Assembly: GCA_017456665.1 (NCBI GenBank)
Contig: JAFTIY010000088.1
Span: forward strand, 1-42,718
DNA length: 42,718 bases
Direction of reading: 5' to 3'
Source: Clostridia bacterium
Lineage (GTDB): Bacteria > Bacillota > Clostridia > Christensenellales > Borkfalkiaceae
The notes beneath the pieces were generated by a model that saw only the letters and a list, made by a program, of their open reading frames with translations, made no database searches and had not been told where the DNA came from. Of the stretch, positions 3,650 to 42,718 are shown piece by piece. Both the position numbers and the translations under genes were made by a program. Each line of letters begins with the position of its first letter. Within the stretch, counting starts at the first letter, position 1.

Positions 3650-4347
3650 TATAATTTACCAAAGCGGCGTTTGCGGTCGGCAAACCACGAAAGCGCCTTT
3701 TTGACTTCCTCCTTTGAAAAATCCGGCCATAAAACGTCGGTAAAATAAAGCTCGGCATAAGCGCATTGAAAGAGCATAAAATTACTCAAGCGATGCTCGC
3801 CACCCGTGCGGATAACTAAATCCACGGGAGGCAAAAAGCCGTTGTAGGTGCTTTTTTGGATGTTTTGCCAAGTTATAGCCAAGTTATCTTTTAGCATATT
3901 GTTAAAGGCGAAACAAAGTTCTTGCCTCGCCCCGTAATTAATACATATGTTTAAAACGGGCTTATTAAAACAAGCGGTTTTTTGCTCGTAGGTATTAATC
4001 GTTTGCCTAATTTGCTCGTTTAAAACCTGCGTATCGCCCGAAATACACAATCTAACCCCCTTTTTGAGAGCTATTTCGCCGTATTTTTTAATGCCGTCGT
4101 TTAAAATTTGAAAAAGAGCGTTAACCTCTTGAGTTGGTCTTTGCATATTTTCGGTAGAAAAAGCGTAAAGCGAAATATAGCTCACGCCCTCTTTAAGCAG
4201 AGCAAAAACCACCCTTTCGATATTTTGAGCGCCTTTTTTATGCCCGTAGCTTCTTTTGTGGTTGCGCGCGGTAGCCCACCTGCCGTTTCCGTCCATAATA
4301 ACGCCAACGTGGCAGGGAACAACCGATAACTGTTTATCCTTTTGCAT
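3649..4347 (-). CDS. uppS: Undecaprenyl diphosphate synthase (cis-prenyltransferase)
   Basis: Condenses isopentenyl diphosphate onto farnesyl diphosphate to build the C55 lipid carrier for cell-wall synthesis. The N-terminal catalytic motif GVIMDGNGRWA (around residue 16) contains the essential Asp. The C-terminal substrate motif VIRTGGEHRLSNFMLFQ and the ending YFTDVLWPDF are clear. At 232 residues it is slightly shorter than many homologues, with both conserved ends intact. Start and stop are both fused to neighbours by TAATG overlaps (frr upstream, cdsA downstream), indicating coupled translation within the operon. Confidence 0.96.
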   Translation of the reverse strand: MQKDKQLSVVPCHVGVIMDGNGRWATARNHKRSYGHKKGAQNIERVVFALLKEGVSYISLYAFSTENMQRPTQEVNALFQILNDGIKKYGEIALKKGVRLCISGDTQVLNEQIRQTINTYEQKTACFNKPVLNICINYGARQELCFAFNNMLKDNLAITWQNIQKSTYNGFLPPVDLVIRTGGEHRLSNFMLFQCAYAELYFTDVLWPDFSKEEVKKALSWFADRKRRFGKL

Positions 4348-7125: not shown

Positions 7126-7471
7126 AATGTGGAAAAAATTAAAAGAACGAACTATCGCGCCGTAAATAACCGCTATTTATTTAAATTCGTTGTTTAAATA
7201 GTGGTTAGATGCAAGCGAGAGCAGGCGTTTTAAGTTTTTCCGCAGGGGGCGACCTTGGTGGTCGCAGGAATGTGGAAAAAATTAAAAGAACGAACTATCG
7301 CGCCGTAAATAACCGCTATTTGTTTAAATTCGTTGTTTAAATAGTGGTTAGATGCAAGCGAGAGCAGGCGTTTTAATTTTTACCGCAGGGAGCGACCTTT
7401 GTGGTCGCAGGAATGTGGAAAAAATCAAAAGAACGAACTATCACGCCGTAAATAACCGCTATTTATTTAAA
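7126..7471. repeat. 143-bp tandem repeat (2.4 copies) running into pyrR
   Basis: Units start at 7126, 7269 and 7412, exactly 143 bp apart. Units 1 and 2 are complete and differ at only a handful of positions. Unit 3 stops after 60 bp at 7471 and supplies the last codons and stop of pyrR. Each full unit holds a stem CCGCTATTT/AAATAGTGG, a GCGACC/GGTCGC hairpin, and an outer TTTTTCCGCA/TGTGGAAAAA pairing that closes across the unit boundary. It fills most of the 7013-7458 gap, where I see no gene. Confidence 0.93.
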
Positions 7472-7995
7472 ATGCAAACGTTAGTTATACCATCAGTCTG
7501 CTCAAACTTAACCGAAACAACTTCGCTTAACGAAGTGGGCACGTTTTTGCCAACGTAATCTGCCCTAATGGGTAACTCGCGGTGACCTCTATCGATAAGC
7601 ACGGCAAGCTGAATGGATTTTGGGCGGCCAAGTTGCATGATGGCGTCGATTGCCGCTCTTACCGTTCGGCCTGTAAAAATAACGTCGTCACATAAAATTA
7701 TATCTTTACCTTTTACGTCAAAATAAATTTTACTTTCGTTTACCTTTGGAATTTCGTCTAGTTCTGAAAGGTCGTCGCGATAAAGAGTTATATCTAACTC
7801 GCCAACGTCTACCTTTGTTTTTTCAATTCGCATAATACCTTCGCTTATAGCCTTTGCAAGCGGCACTCCGCGCGTTTTAATACCAACGAGGGCTATACTT
7901 TCTGCCCCGCCGTTACGCTCTAAAATTTCATGCGAAAGCCTAACTATAGTGCGTTTAATCGCATTTTCGTCTAATAACAGTGTTTTAAATTTCAT
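7459..7995 (-). CDS. pyrR: PyrR bifunctional pyrimidine regulator / uracil phosphoribosyltransferase
   Basis: PyrR binds pyr-operon mRNA in response to UMP/UTP and has uracil phosphoribosyltransferase activity (family knowledge). The PRPP-binding loop [17 protein letters not shown] is clear (about residues 96-112), as are [14 protein letters not shown] and the ending [18 protein letters not shown] take ATG 7995 (178 residues) rather than TTG 8007; neither has a strong ribosome site. No pyrimidine biosynthesis gene or anti-terminator pair is visible nearby, so it would have to regulate distant targets. The last three codons and stop lie inside unit 3 of the tandem repeat, suggesting repeat insertion or expansion at the gene's 3' end. 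Confidence 0.94.
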
Positions 7996-8088
7996 TATAT
8001 ATACCAACGATTAAGTTCGTTATTGCGCCTATTTATTCAGCAAAATATTAAATTTTGATAATTATCTTTTTATTGTAATAACATAAAT

Positions 8089-40913: not shown

Positions 40914-42191
40914 ATGCAAGAAATTAATAAAATTAAGCAATCTATTATCGATCTATGCGCAATTGAAAGCGTTCAGCAGCCCCCACTTGAGGGTATGCCC
41001 TTTGGAAAAGGGGTTAACGATGCTTTAATTTTTACTCTTAACTTAGCAAACTCAATGGGGTTTGAAACGGTAAATTACGACGGGTATGCCGGCGAAATCA
41101 TTTGGCATGGCGAGGACGAAAACGAACAAACGATGGGTATTCTTTGCCATCTTGACGTTGTAAAGGCAGGACGACTTGGCGATTGGAAATATCCTCCCTT
41201 TACGCCAACCGAAGAGGACGGAAAAATTTATGCACGCGGTACTTTAGACGATAAGGGCCCGACCATTTGCGTTCTTTATATGTTAAAGGAGTTAAAGGAT
41301 GAGGGCTTTAAACCTAAAAAGACGATAAAATTTATACTTGGATGCAATGAAGAGAGTGGCTGGGAATGTATTAAACACTATAAAAAAGTGGCAAAAATGC
41401 CCGATTTTGGATTTTCTCCAGACGGAAACTTCCCCGTGCTTTATGCCGAAAAGGGTATTTACCACGCAAGGTTTGAGTTTGACTGCAGTCCGCTTATAAA
41501 AATTTGTAAAGGGGGAGAGATGGCTAATATGGTTTGCGATTACGCATACGCCGTTGCTCCCGTTAACGAAGAGGCTGCAATAAAGTACGGTTTAACCGTA
41601 AACGGCGAAAAGGTAGAAAGCTTTGGCGTTTCGGCGCACGGATCAACCCCTGATAAGGGAAAAAACGCAATAGCTCCCCTTCTTTTATACCTTGCAGAGT
41701 GCGGACTTATTGATAAATACGTTTACGATTCGCTGTTTGGCGATTGCTATGGGCTTAAAAAGTTAAACGATGAAACGGGCTATCTTACTATGTCGCCCGA
41801 TATTATAGAGGCACAAGACGGAAAGATGTATATAACCGTTGATTTTAGATATCCCGCAACCTTTGACGGTCAGGTGATGATAGACGCGGTAAAAAAAATC
41901 GCACCAAGCACTCTTATAGGAAATCACCAGCTTCCGTTATTCAACAGCAAAGATAGTTTTTTAATAAAAACTTTATTAAATATTTACAATGAAGAAACGA
42001 ATAGCGACCTAAAGCCGATGGCGATAGGAGGCGGAACTTACGCAAGGGCGTTGCCAATCGGCGTTGCATTCGGCCCGGAATTTCCAGGAGAGGATGCCCC
42101 GGTTCATGAGCCAAACGAGTATATTACCGTTAAAAATATTGAAAAAATGTGTGCAATATATAAACGTGCCATTAAAGAGCTTACCAAATAG
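40914..42191 (+). CDS. pepV: M20-family dipeptidase (PepV-like)
   Basis: A cytoplasmic zinc dipeptidase that releases amino acids from dipeptides. The 425-residue protein has the M20 metal motifs in order: GILCHLDVVKAG (about residues 75-86), ARGTLDDKGPTICVLYML (about 104-121), GCNEESGWECIKHY (about 144-157), SPDGNFPVLYAEKG (about 166-179) and the C-terminal FGPEFPGEDAPVHEPNEY with the final His ligand. The lid/dimer domain includes VSAHGSTPDKGKNAI. Length is a little under the usual PepV size. It has its own promoter and is followed by the multi-hairpin repeat. Confidence 0.92.
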   Translation: MQEINKIKQSIIDLCAIESVQQPPLEGMPFGKGVNDALIFTLNLANSMGFETVNYDGYAGEIIWHGEDENEQTMGILCHLDVVKAGRLGDWKYPPFTPTEEDGKIYARGTLDDKGPTICVLYMLKELKDEGFKPKKTIKFILGCNEESGWECIKHYKKVAKMPDFGFSPDGNFPVLYAEKGIYHARFEFDCSPLIKICKGGEMANMVCDYAYAVAPVNEEAAIKYGLTVNGEKVESFGVSAHGSTPDKGKNAIAPLLLYLAECGLIDKYVYDSLFGDCYGLKKLNDETGYLTMSPDIIEAQDGKMYITVDFRYPATFDGQVMIDAVKKIAPSTLIGNHQLPLFNSKDSFLIKTLLNIYNEETNSDLKPMAIGGGTYARALPIGVAFGPEFPGEDAPVHEPNEYITVKNIEKMCAIYKRAIKELTK

Positions 42192-42235
42192 TGATTTGTT
42201 TTTGTTAAGCGGCAAAAAAAGCACTTACGAGCCAT

Positions 42236-42455
42236 AGCGTGATGCTCTTAACGGAGCATTCACGCTAAATGATGTTTGCCCTCACGGGCAAATGATGTTG
42301 CCTGCGGCAGTGATGTTTACTGCGTGAATGATGTTGTGCCTTCGGCACAGTGGGCAAACATCACATCATTGCGAGCTTGTATTTGCGTAGCAAATGGCGA
42401 GCAACATCATTATGCGGAGCATAACATCACTTTTGCGTCAGAAAAAACATCACTA
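42236..42455. repeat. Compound multi-hairpin repeat with GATGTT/AACATC spacers
   Basis: A chain of small hairpins: AGCGTGATGCTC/GAGCATTCACGCT (42236-42266), TTTGCCC/GGGCAAA (42275-42292), TGCC/GGCA (42299-42309), TGTGCC/GGCACA (42335-42349), TTTGC/GCAAA (42382-42394) and TTATGC/GCATAA (42410-42424). Between them GATGTT occurs four times in the first half and AACATC four times in the second, so the two halves can also pair with each other. An open frame across it is an artefact of the repeat. Confidence 0.85.
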
Positions 42456-42464
42456 ACAGAAAAA

Positions 42465-42504
42465 AGAGAGGACACTTCGGGATTTAAGCCGATTTGTTCT
42501 CTCT
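42465..42504. terminator. Nested hairpin, terminator-like
   Basis: AGAGAGGACA (42465-42474) pairs with TGTTCTCTCT (42495-42504), with inner TCGG/CCGA. Flanked by an A-run left and T-rich sequence right; it could end pepV transcription. Confidence 0.6.
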
Positions 42505-42540
42505 TTCTGCTTGTATTAAGGGTTTGAGCTTAGCCCTTTT

Positions 42541-42560
42541 GCATTTGTCCAGACAAATGC
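42541..42560. repeat. Perfect 9-bp inverted repeat
   Basis: GCATTTGTC and GACAAATGC with a 2-bp centre, just after AAGGG/CCCTT arms. From 42561 to the window end I see AT-rich sequence and no gene. Confidence 0.6.
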
Positions 42561-42718
42561 GATGCTTGAACTTTTGTCAAAGTGTAAATTCTCCGCTAAG
42601 GATACCACCATATATCTGCTTAATTTTTATACTTTTTACATAAAAAGATAAAAACTCTAGAAGAAAACACGTTAATTAAGATAACGCACTCAAAAAAAAG
42701 AGAAGGCAAAAAATATTA

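Follow-up and report, generated by a model that had tools for sequence, protein, structure and literature searches.

A Gut-1-related hairpin-array element in intrinsic terminators of Clostridia, probably moved in trans by a large serine recombinase

The Gut-1 RNA (Rfam accession RF01706) was published as an independent RNA some 77 nt long, found only in the human gut; its status as an RNA, and as a non-coding one, was rated certain (Weinberg et al. 2010, PMC2864571). A literature search found no later papers naming its accession. The element described here resembles Gut-1 in its three hairpins separated by GUGAAAU-type spacers. It differs in that the Gut-1-like part is half of a palindromic mobile unit, which measures about 330-400 bp and sits in terminator loops, and in that the copy analysed lies below the Rfam threshold and has GATGTT spacers. 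The domain DUF4368 marks a clade of multi-targeting large serine recombinases (DUF4368 / TndX / Cp36), one member of which has a target motif that is A-rich on the 5' side and T-rich on the 3' side of a dinucleotide core, while another has a TT core (PMC10083194). Elements of this clade in two genomes (G074 and G098) share with ours the end arm GTGATGTTCTTARCGGAGAATT, a TT core in register and a half-terminator flank, but the clade's elements encode a recombinase and much cargo, whereas ours has no gene. IS1272, of the IS1182 family, also uses inverted repeats as its target; it removes the target stem-loop without duplication (PMC5678879), whereas here the stem arms are kept and 2 bp are duplicated.

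Bacterial MITEs, like this element, are short, non-coding, multi-copy and intergenic and have inverted ends. The differences lie in the terminator-loop target, the interior made of a hairpin array, and the probable mover, a serine recombinase rather than a DDE transposase. REP/BIME sequences with their RAYT (TnpA-REP) transposases are likewise repeated extragenic palindromes having a short constant head by the hairpins and inverted second copies. Constant spacers and inverted halves are present here, but a GTAG-type head is not, and the element has terminal inverted ends, a 2-bp duplication, terminator-loop targets and, in most of its carriers, no matching Y1 transposase. A literature search found no papers on terminator-targeting MITEs, and we know of no description of a MITE whose mover is a large serine recombinase.

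The window, that is, the whole stretch of 42,718 nucleotides analysed, carries one copy near its right end. A preliminary description had placed a multi-hairpin element at 42236-42455. The array found there is real, but the unit is larger: the complete element occupies 42235-42609 (375 bp), of which the earlier stretch covers the left 60%, and includes a left-end hairpin, a three-hairpin tail and a right inverted repeat. Its layout is thus a terminal hairpin, a palindromic array and a three-hairpin tail, between imperfect inverted ends. The four GATGTT and four AACATC spacers reported earlier are all present, as are hairpins with the loops TCAC, TGC, TGC, TTC, GTA and GGA. The features are as follows.

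40914..42191, + strand: upstream gene, M20-family peptidase; its 3' end faces the element, 43 bp apart
42216..42235, + strand: left host flank, A-rich AAAAAAGCACTTACGAGCCAT, putative 5' terminator arm (from flank pairing across copies)
42234-42235, + strand: left 2-bp core AT (register from the junction comparison of copies)
42235..42609, + strand: complete mobile element (boundaries from copies with unrelated flanks)
42235..42267, + strand: left-end hairpin TAGCGTGATGCTC-TTAACG-GAGCATTCACGCTA (from the sequence; conserved in copies)
within 42235..42267, + strand: left inverted-repeat arm AGCGTGATGCTCTTAACGGAG, in the left-end hairpin (from the sequence; conserved in copies)
42267-42339, + strand: Gut-1-like match in the first half-array (RF01706, full model, 35.7 bits; gathering score 50)
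42271..42335, + strand: first half-array with four GATGTT spacers (42271-42276, 42294-42299, 42312-42317, 42330-42335)
42275-42292, 42299-42309 and 42316-42328, + strand: hairpins of the first half-array
42335..42404, + strand: centre of the array
42335-42349, + strand: centre hairpin TGTGCC-TTC-GGCACA
42352-42363, + strand: GGGCAAACATCA in the centre, the exact complement of 42270-42281
42369-42404, + strand: centre hairpin with a GTA loop
42357..42451, + strand: second half-array with four AACATC spacers (42357-42362, 42403-42408, 42423-42428, 42446-42451)
42410-42424 and 42431-42446, + strand: hairpins of the second half-array
42457..42509, + strand: tail hairpin CAGAAAAAAGAGAGGACA...TGTTCTCTCTTTCTG, common to subfamilies with other spacers
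42520..42536, + strand: tail hairpin GGGTTTGAGCTTAGCCC (conserved in copies)
42541..42560, + strand: tail palindrome GCATTTGTCCAGACAAATGC (from the sequence; conserved in copies)
42587..42609, + strand: right-end arm AATTCTCCGCTAAGGATACCACC, the inverse of the left arm
42610..42634, + strand: right host flank, core AT (42612-42613) followed by TCTGCTTAATTTTTATA, a degenerate 3' terminator arm

Two other repeats occur in the window. The dispersed repeat CTATAACGCGATTA (extended form GGGGCTATAACGCGATTAACTG) is found 12 times in the 42.7 kb, against 0.03 expected, at 2792, 7044, 8236, 13881, 16085, 21784, 22439, 26513, 27379, 28877, 30862 and 39688; it is apparently mostly intergenic and is unrelated to the hairpin array. 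A 143-nt tandem unit is repeated about 2.4 times at 7126-7471, with at least 97% identity.

The pattern GATGTT-N(6-26)-GATGTT occurs five times in the window, always inside the stretch first noted, where 0.06 occurrences would be expected; none of 100 shuffles reached five. As single-stranded DNA the full element folds with -77.3 kcal/mol, compared with -46.8 +/- 4.3 kcal/mol for shuffled sequences (z = -7.1), and the complete element folded as RNA is also far more stable than its shuffles. Both of the folds proposed in the preliminary description are found, the hairpins standing in a row in one and the spacers pairing to give a cruciform in the other. When 12 copies are aligned, the cruciform is the consensus fold, with first-half spacers pairing with second-half ones. 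In this fold 97.5% of the cells are paired, as against 38-50% when the partners are slid, and the covariation is 0.202 versus 0.086 (0 of 500 shuffles). A T-to-A switch in the forward spacers is matched by an A-to-T switch in the partner (UA:7, AU:5; columns 62/225, 80/202 and 100/178), and the hairpin stems likewise carry two-sided changes. Judging by these compensatory changes, the array is kept as a structure.

Any one copy has uniform spacers, and subfamilies hardly share a spacer type; a change in one half is compensated in the other, and the spacer positions are nearly constant from copy to copy. The counts of GATGTT/GAAGTT/GAAATC/GATATT/GAATTG/TTATGA are 8/0/0/0/0/0 in the window, 0/7/0/0/0/0 in copy L042, 0/0/6/0/0/0 in L029 and 0/0/0/6/0/0 in L203; the TTATGA group is looser, with two to five exact spacers. 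Because the two aligned subfamilies are clades, the switches may represent few events. Several pairs that change together, and six spacer types that are complementary between the halves, need explaining. The array would be either a tolerated insert or else a recognition or RNA module.

At the Rfam gathering threshold there was no match in the window. In a relaxed search the window copy matched the full RF01706 model (35.7 bits against a gathering score of 50; E 1.4e-5 for the stretch). On the opposite strand, the second half of this copy gave a match of 20 bits. Five related copies reach the threshold with 50.3-57.6 bits, two of them in the window's own genome (L222, G000:C118, and L185, G000:C28; the others are L038, L043 and L033), and these have GTGAAGTT or ATGAAATC spacers. 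Since these related copies exceed the threshold, Gut-1 is half of this element. By sequence comparison the window element is related to Gut-1 at the family level, and this explains where Gut-1 sits.

Complete copies number about 25; they come from the genome of the window, from its genus, from further families of the order and from named metagenome genomes of Clostridia. When 61 relatives were searched with a 301-base probe, nine matches were obtained in the own genome (G000) and nine in G001, of the same genus, with further copies in G002, G035, G032, G048, G045 and others, 10 of the 61 relatives in all. The earlier suspicion of a modular, repeated and mobile palindromic element, which could not have stood without other copies in the genome or its relatives, is therefore borne out: the hairpins vary across the copies while the spacers are constant. 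Some copies are 94-98% identical across families, that in G048 (another family of the order) being 98% and that in RGIG5194 (a named Clostridia genome from sheep caecum) 96% identical. Besides the window's own, 23 complete copies of 328-397 bp are delimited by both ends (left TAGCGTGATACTCTTAACGGAG, right CTCCGCTAAGAACATCACC). The outer 60 bp are unrelated in copies that are 94-98% identical inside, which shows that the ends are real. A scan of the genome contigs for the GATGTT pattern was dominated by chance and coding matches; the only complete copies that it gave were L052, L064 and L159, L098 being a naked array. Phage and plasmid records contained no copy of the element. Nor does its exact end pattern occur in IMG/VR or in the 391 genomes of the class that were searched, of which few belong to the order, so that complete elements look largely order-restricted.

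Like a MITE, the element is non-coding and has terminal inverted repeats, several copies and different flanks. Its mobility is well supported. At L210 (G151:C25) two elements form a head-to-tail tandem pair with one CGTT junction common to both, as expected of a circle recombining into a filled site or of unequal exchange.

Nearly every copy lies directly 3' of a gene, the genes being unrelated between copies, and its flanks are the two arms of an intrinsic terminator that differs from copy to copy. The left and right flanks of the same copy pair with a mean of -16.1 kcal/mol over 22 copies, compared with -6.8 kcal/mol for mismatched flanks (0 of 20000 permutations). The terminator stem is found over these 22 copies, the window copy itself being weak: its own flanks pair with -5.1 kcal/mol (AAGCA with TGCTT of the right flank), and its right arm is degenerate and 100 bp from the contig end. 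These weak arms and the nearby contig end make decay or an assembly join possible there. Examples of pairing flanks in other copies are AAAAAGGACGAGAA / element / TTCTCGTCCTTTTT (L032) and AAAAACTCTCCGT / element / ACGGAGAGTTTTT (L052). Two orthologous sites that lack the element are ordinary terminators, one at mreB in G000 (versus L031) and one in G075 (versus L022); no base-exact empty site was found among the genomes compared, one genome per species. Targeting of intrinsic terminators by the element is well supported. On partition-function folding, the host terminator is predicted to re-close around the insert to 92% of a tetraloop control, versus 89% with shuffled inserts (p = 0.01). Re-closure is thus hardly better than with shuffled inserts, so that an array-specific sparing of the terminator is not claimed and the tolerance argument has little array-specific thermodynamic support.

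Upon comparing the left with the right junctions of 22 copies, exactly two adjacent positions were found to be co-duplicated, at rates of 95% versus 54% expected (z 5.3) and 91% versus 83% (z 2.8). The duplicated dinucleotide is mostly TT, is AT in the window's subfamily, and is GT and TA once each. In this 2-bp register both ends together make one site with symmetry about the core, from which they read outward as TGGGTGATGTTCTTAGCGGAG and AGCGTGATACTCTTAACGGAG. The duplication is of the kind expected at a MITE target site, but it could also be a recombinase core: as in the substrates of large serine recombinases, a 2-bp core is common to both junctions and the half-sites are inverted.

The right-end motif was searched, with up to one mismatch, in 200 genomes of the order. 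It matched the small elements, two coding regions (L199 and L206) that look like chance, and the contigs G074:C5 and G098:C2. In both contigs the element's right arm, GTGATGTTCTTAACGGAGAATT, lies 50-70 bp downstream of the stop codon in a large serine recombinase gene. The domains of the protein in G074 are Resolvase, Recombinase, a zinc ribbon and DUF4368. The C-termini of the two recombinases are homologous and diverged (about 65% identical by eye), yet the end TTTCCGTGATGTTCTTAACGGAGAATTGGTGG is identical in both genomes. The 22-bp arm adjoins the half-terminators AAACCTCC in G074 and AAAAACCTCCC in G098, the sequence outside the end (ACAAACCTCCG..., AAAAACCTCCC...) is half a terminator, and the spacing to the TT core is that of the small element. 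By our own arithmetic, an exact match of 22 bases would arise by chance in this amount of sequence with a probability below 1e-3. These matches moderately support the DUF4368 large serine recombinase as the best candidate for the mobiliser. Behind the G074 recombinase (L283, G074:C5:84000-97236) are genes resembling a type I restriction-modification system, which probably belong to the recombinase's element.

In two genomes, then, a single end adjacent to a serine recombinase matches; some 1.05 Mb of G074 did not contain the other end of that recombinase's element. No large serine recombinase was detected in the copy-rich G001, which is 96% complete, nor in G151, G219, G125 and G045, and in such carriers the supply of recombinase was possibly transient. 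These ends are missing from the recombinases of the other carriers. Plasmid-borne relatives of the recombinase do not exceed 44% identity, and IMG/VR yielded none. Given one end only, the lack of a recombinase in G001 and other carriers' recombinases without these ends, the mechanism is one that we infer.

The best explanation, to which a probability of roughly 0.6 is given, is that of a non-autonomous MITE-like element in the loops of intrinsic (rho-independent) terminators, moved in trans by a DUF4368 large serine recombinase. Its basis in the sequence is a single 375-bp unit with inverted ends, many copies, terminator-arm flanks, a 2-bp duplication and an array that contains Gut-1. The mover is probably a serine recombinase supplied from elsewhere. 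A TndX-like, multi-targeting enzyme, provided in trans by an integrative element, would excise the unit as a circle with the junction ...CTCCGCTAAGAACATCACCCA-TT-AGCGTGATACTCTTAACGGAG... and would then integrate the circle at terminators, which would resemble symmetrical A-rich / core / T-rich attB sites to the enzyme. Insertion after genes, with the host stem still closable round the insert, would be nearly neutral, and the element may persist for that reason. No host benefit was seen.

A possible though doubtful reading, compatible with this explanation of the complete unit, is that the hairpin array is a mobile or selfish module in its own right, which a separate element, one that targets terminators, has captured. 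Naked arrays, which share the design but have neither ends nor tail, follow tRNA terminators in the window's own genome (L007, G000:C15; L010, G000:C38) and occur in other Clostridia (L028, G023:C69; L098; L150), several of them directly adjoining a terminator T-tract. Arrays are also present in gut phage contigs (L450, twice; L431/L479; L474), some with other spacers, those observed being GTGAAGTT, TCGATAT and TGAATTG. The two in L450, at 3845-4055 and 7848-8060, stand between structural genes and point in opposite directions; at these sites related phages for the most part carry no array, or have other palindromes, such as TTGACAA repeats with a similar centre. This occurrence in the own genome, other Clostridia and phages suggests that the array may be an older module of its own. 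However, neither a mobiliser nor a precise empty site was found for the naked arrays, no phage-record match spanned such an array site, and the naked arrays could equally be decayed copies.

It is unlikely that the unit is instead a MITE related to a DDE transposon whose targets are palindromes in terminators and which duplicates 2 bp there, the serine recombinase match then being secondary. Inverted ends and a short duplication would fit, and palindrome-targeting DDE elements exist, IS1272 being one that replaces stem-loops (PMC5678879). However, the deletion of the stem-loop without duplication by IS1272 is at odds with the two stem arms that remain here, and no DDE element with these ends was found in the 200 genomes of the order searched by end motif. 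The DUF772 domain of IS1182-type transposases, the one DDE-type domain searched, is present in none of 11 carriers; an IS1182-type transposase was accordingly rejected as the general mover.

Still less probable is a true non-coding RNA gene, Gut-1, acting in trans, with the copies as gene duplicates. The published rating of Gut-1 as certainly RNA and non-coding (PMC2864571), the covarying structure and the position of the copies, where upstream transcripts would read in, are in its favour, but a DNA structure explains the covariation equally well. Moreover, Gut-1 is only one half of a symmetrical palindrome within a mobile unit, there are several copies per genome and they are sporadic in relatives (10 of 61 genomes), and around the window copy no promoter-like site above chance was found. 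Since the genes around different copies are unrelated, the ideas of a CRISPR-like element, a toxin-antitoxin RNA or a riboswitch were dropped.

The preliminary description had proposed a REP/BIME-like element, with a REP-associated Y1 (HUH) transposase as its mover. Hairpins with a short constant head and an inverted second half speak for this, but it is very improbable and already largely refuted: Y1_Tnp (PF01797) is absent from seven of 11 carriers (G001, 96% complete with nine matches, G002, G048, G151, G032, G094 and G045), Y1 matches span most of the family model in just two of the 11, the window's genome has only truncated IS200-like remnants, and paired inverted ends with a 2-bp duplication, here in terminator loops, are unexpected of the Y1 mechanism. 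The earlier interpretation as a whole is partly supported; terminator targeting, the tail and the kinship with Gut-1 were no part of it. The remnants in the window's genome are L197 (G000:C118:74411-74581) and L198 (G000:C89:13-126).

Across all the arrays the spacer types are GATGTT, GAAGTT, GAAATC, GATATT, GAATTG, TTATGA, TCGATAT and ATGAAGC. Tentatively, the arrays may represent an undescribed, widespread superfamily of palindromic hairpin-array elements, of which Gut-1 would be a fragment and which would parasitise intrinsic terminators and gut phages. All or nearly all of the six to eight spacers in an element would be identical and would switch together, with compensation in the opposite half, implying either a spacer-specific trans-acting partner or homogenising template-switching; among the members of the superfamily would be a MITE that owes its movement to a large serine recombinase.

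With the element described here, Gut-1, catalogued as a "certain" non-coding RNA, is recast as half of a mobile DNA element, and the description of the Rfam Gut-1 family may need revision, as its above-threshold matches here (L222, L185, L038, L043 and L033) are halves of palindromic mobile elements. Intrinsic terminators emerge as a preferred and probably nearly harmless landing site, a choice linked to the A-rich/core/T-rich preference of the multi-targeting serine recombinases used in genome engineering. It is unusual for all eight spacers of so short an element to switch in concert, and this poses a testable question, namely what reads or copies the spacer code.
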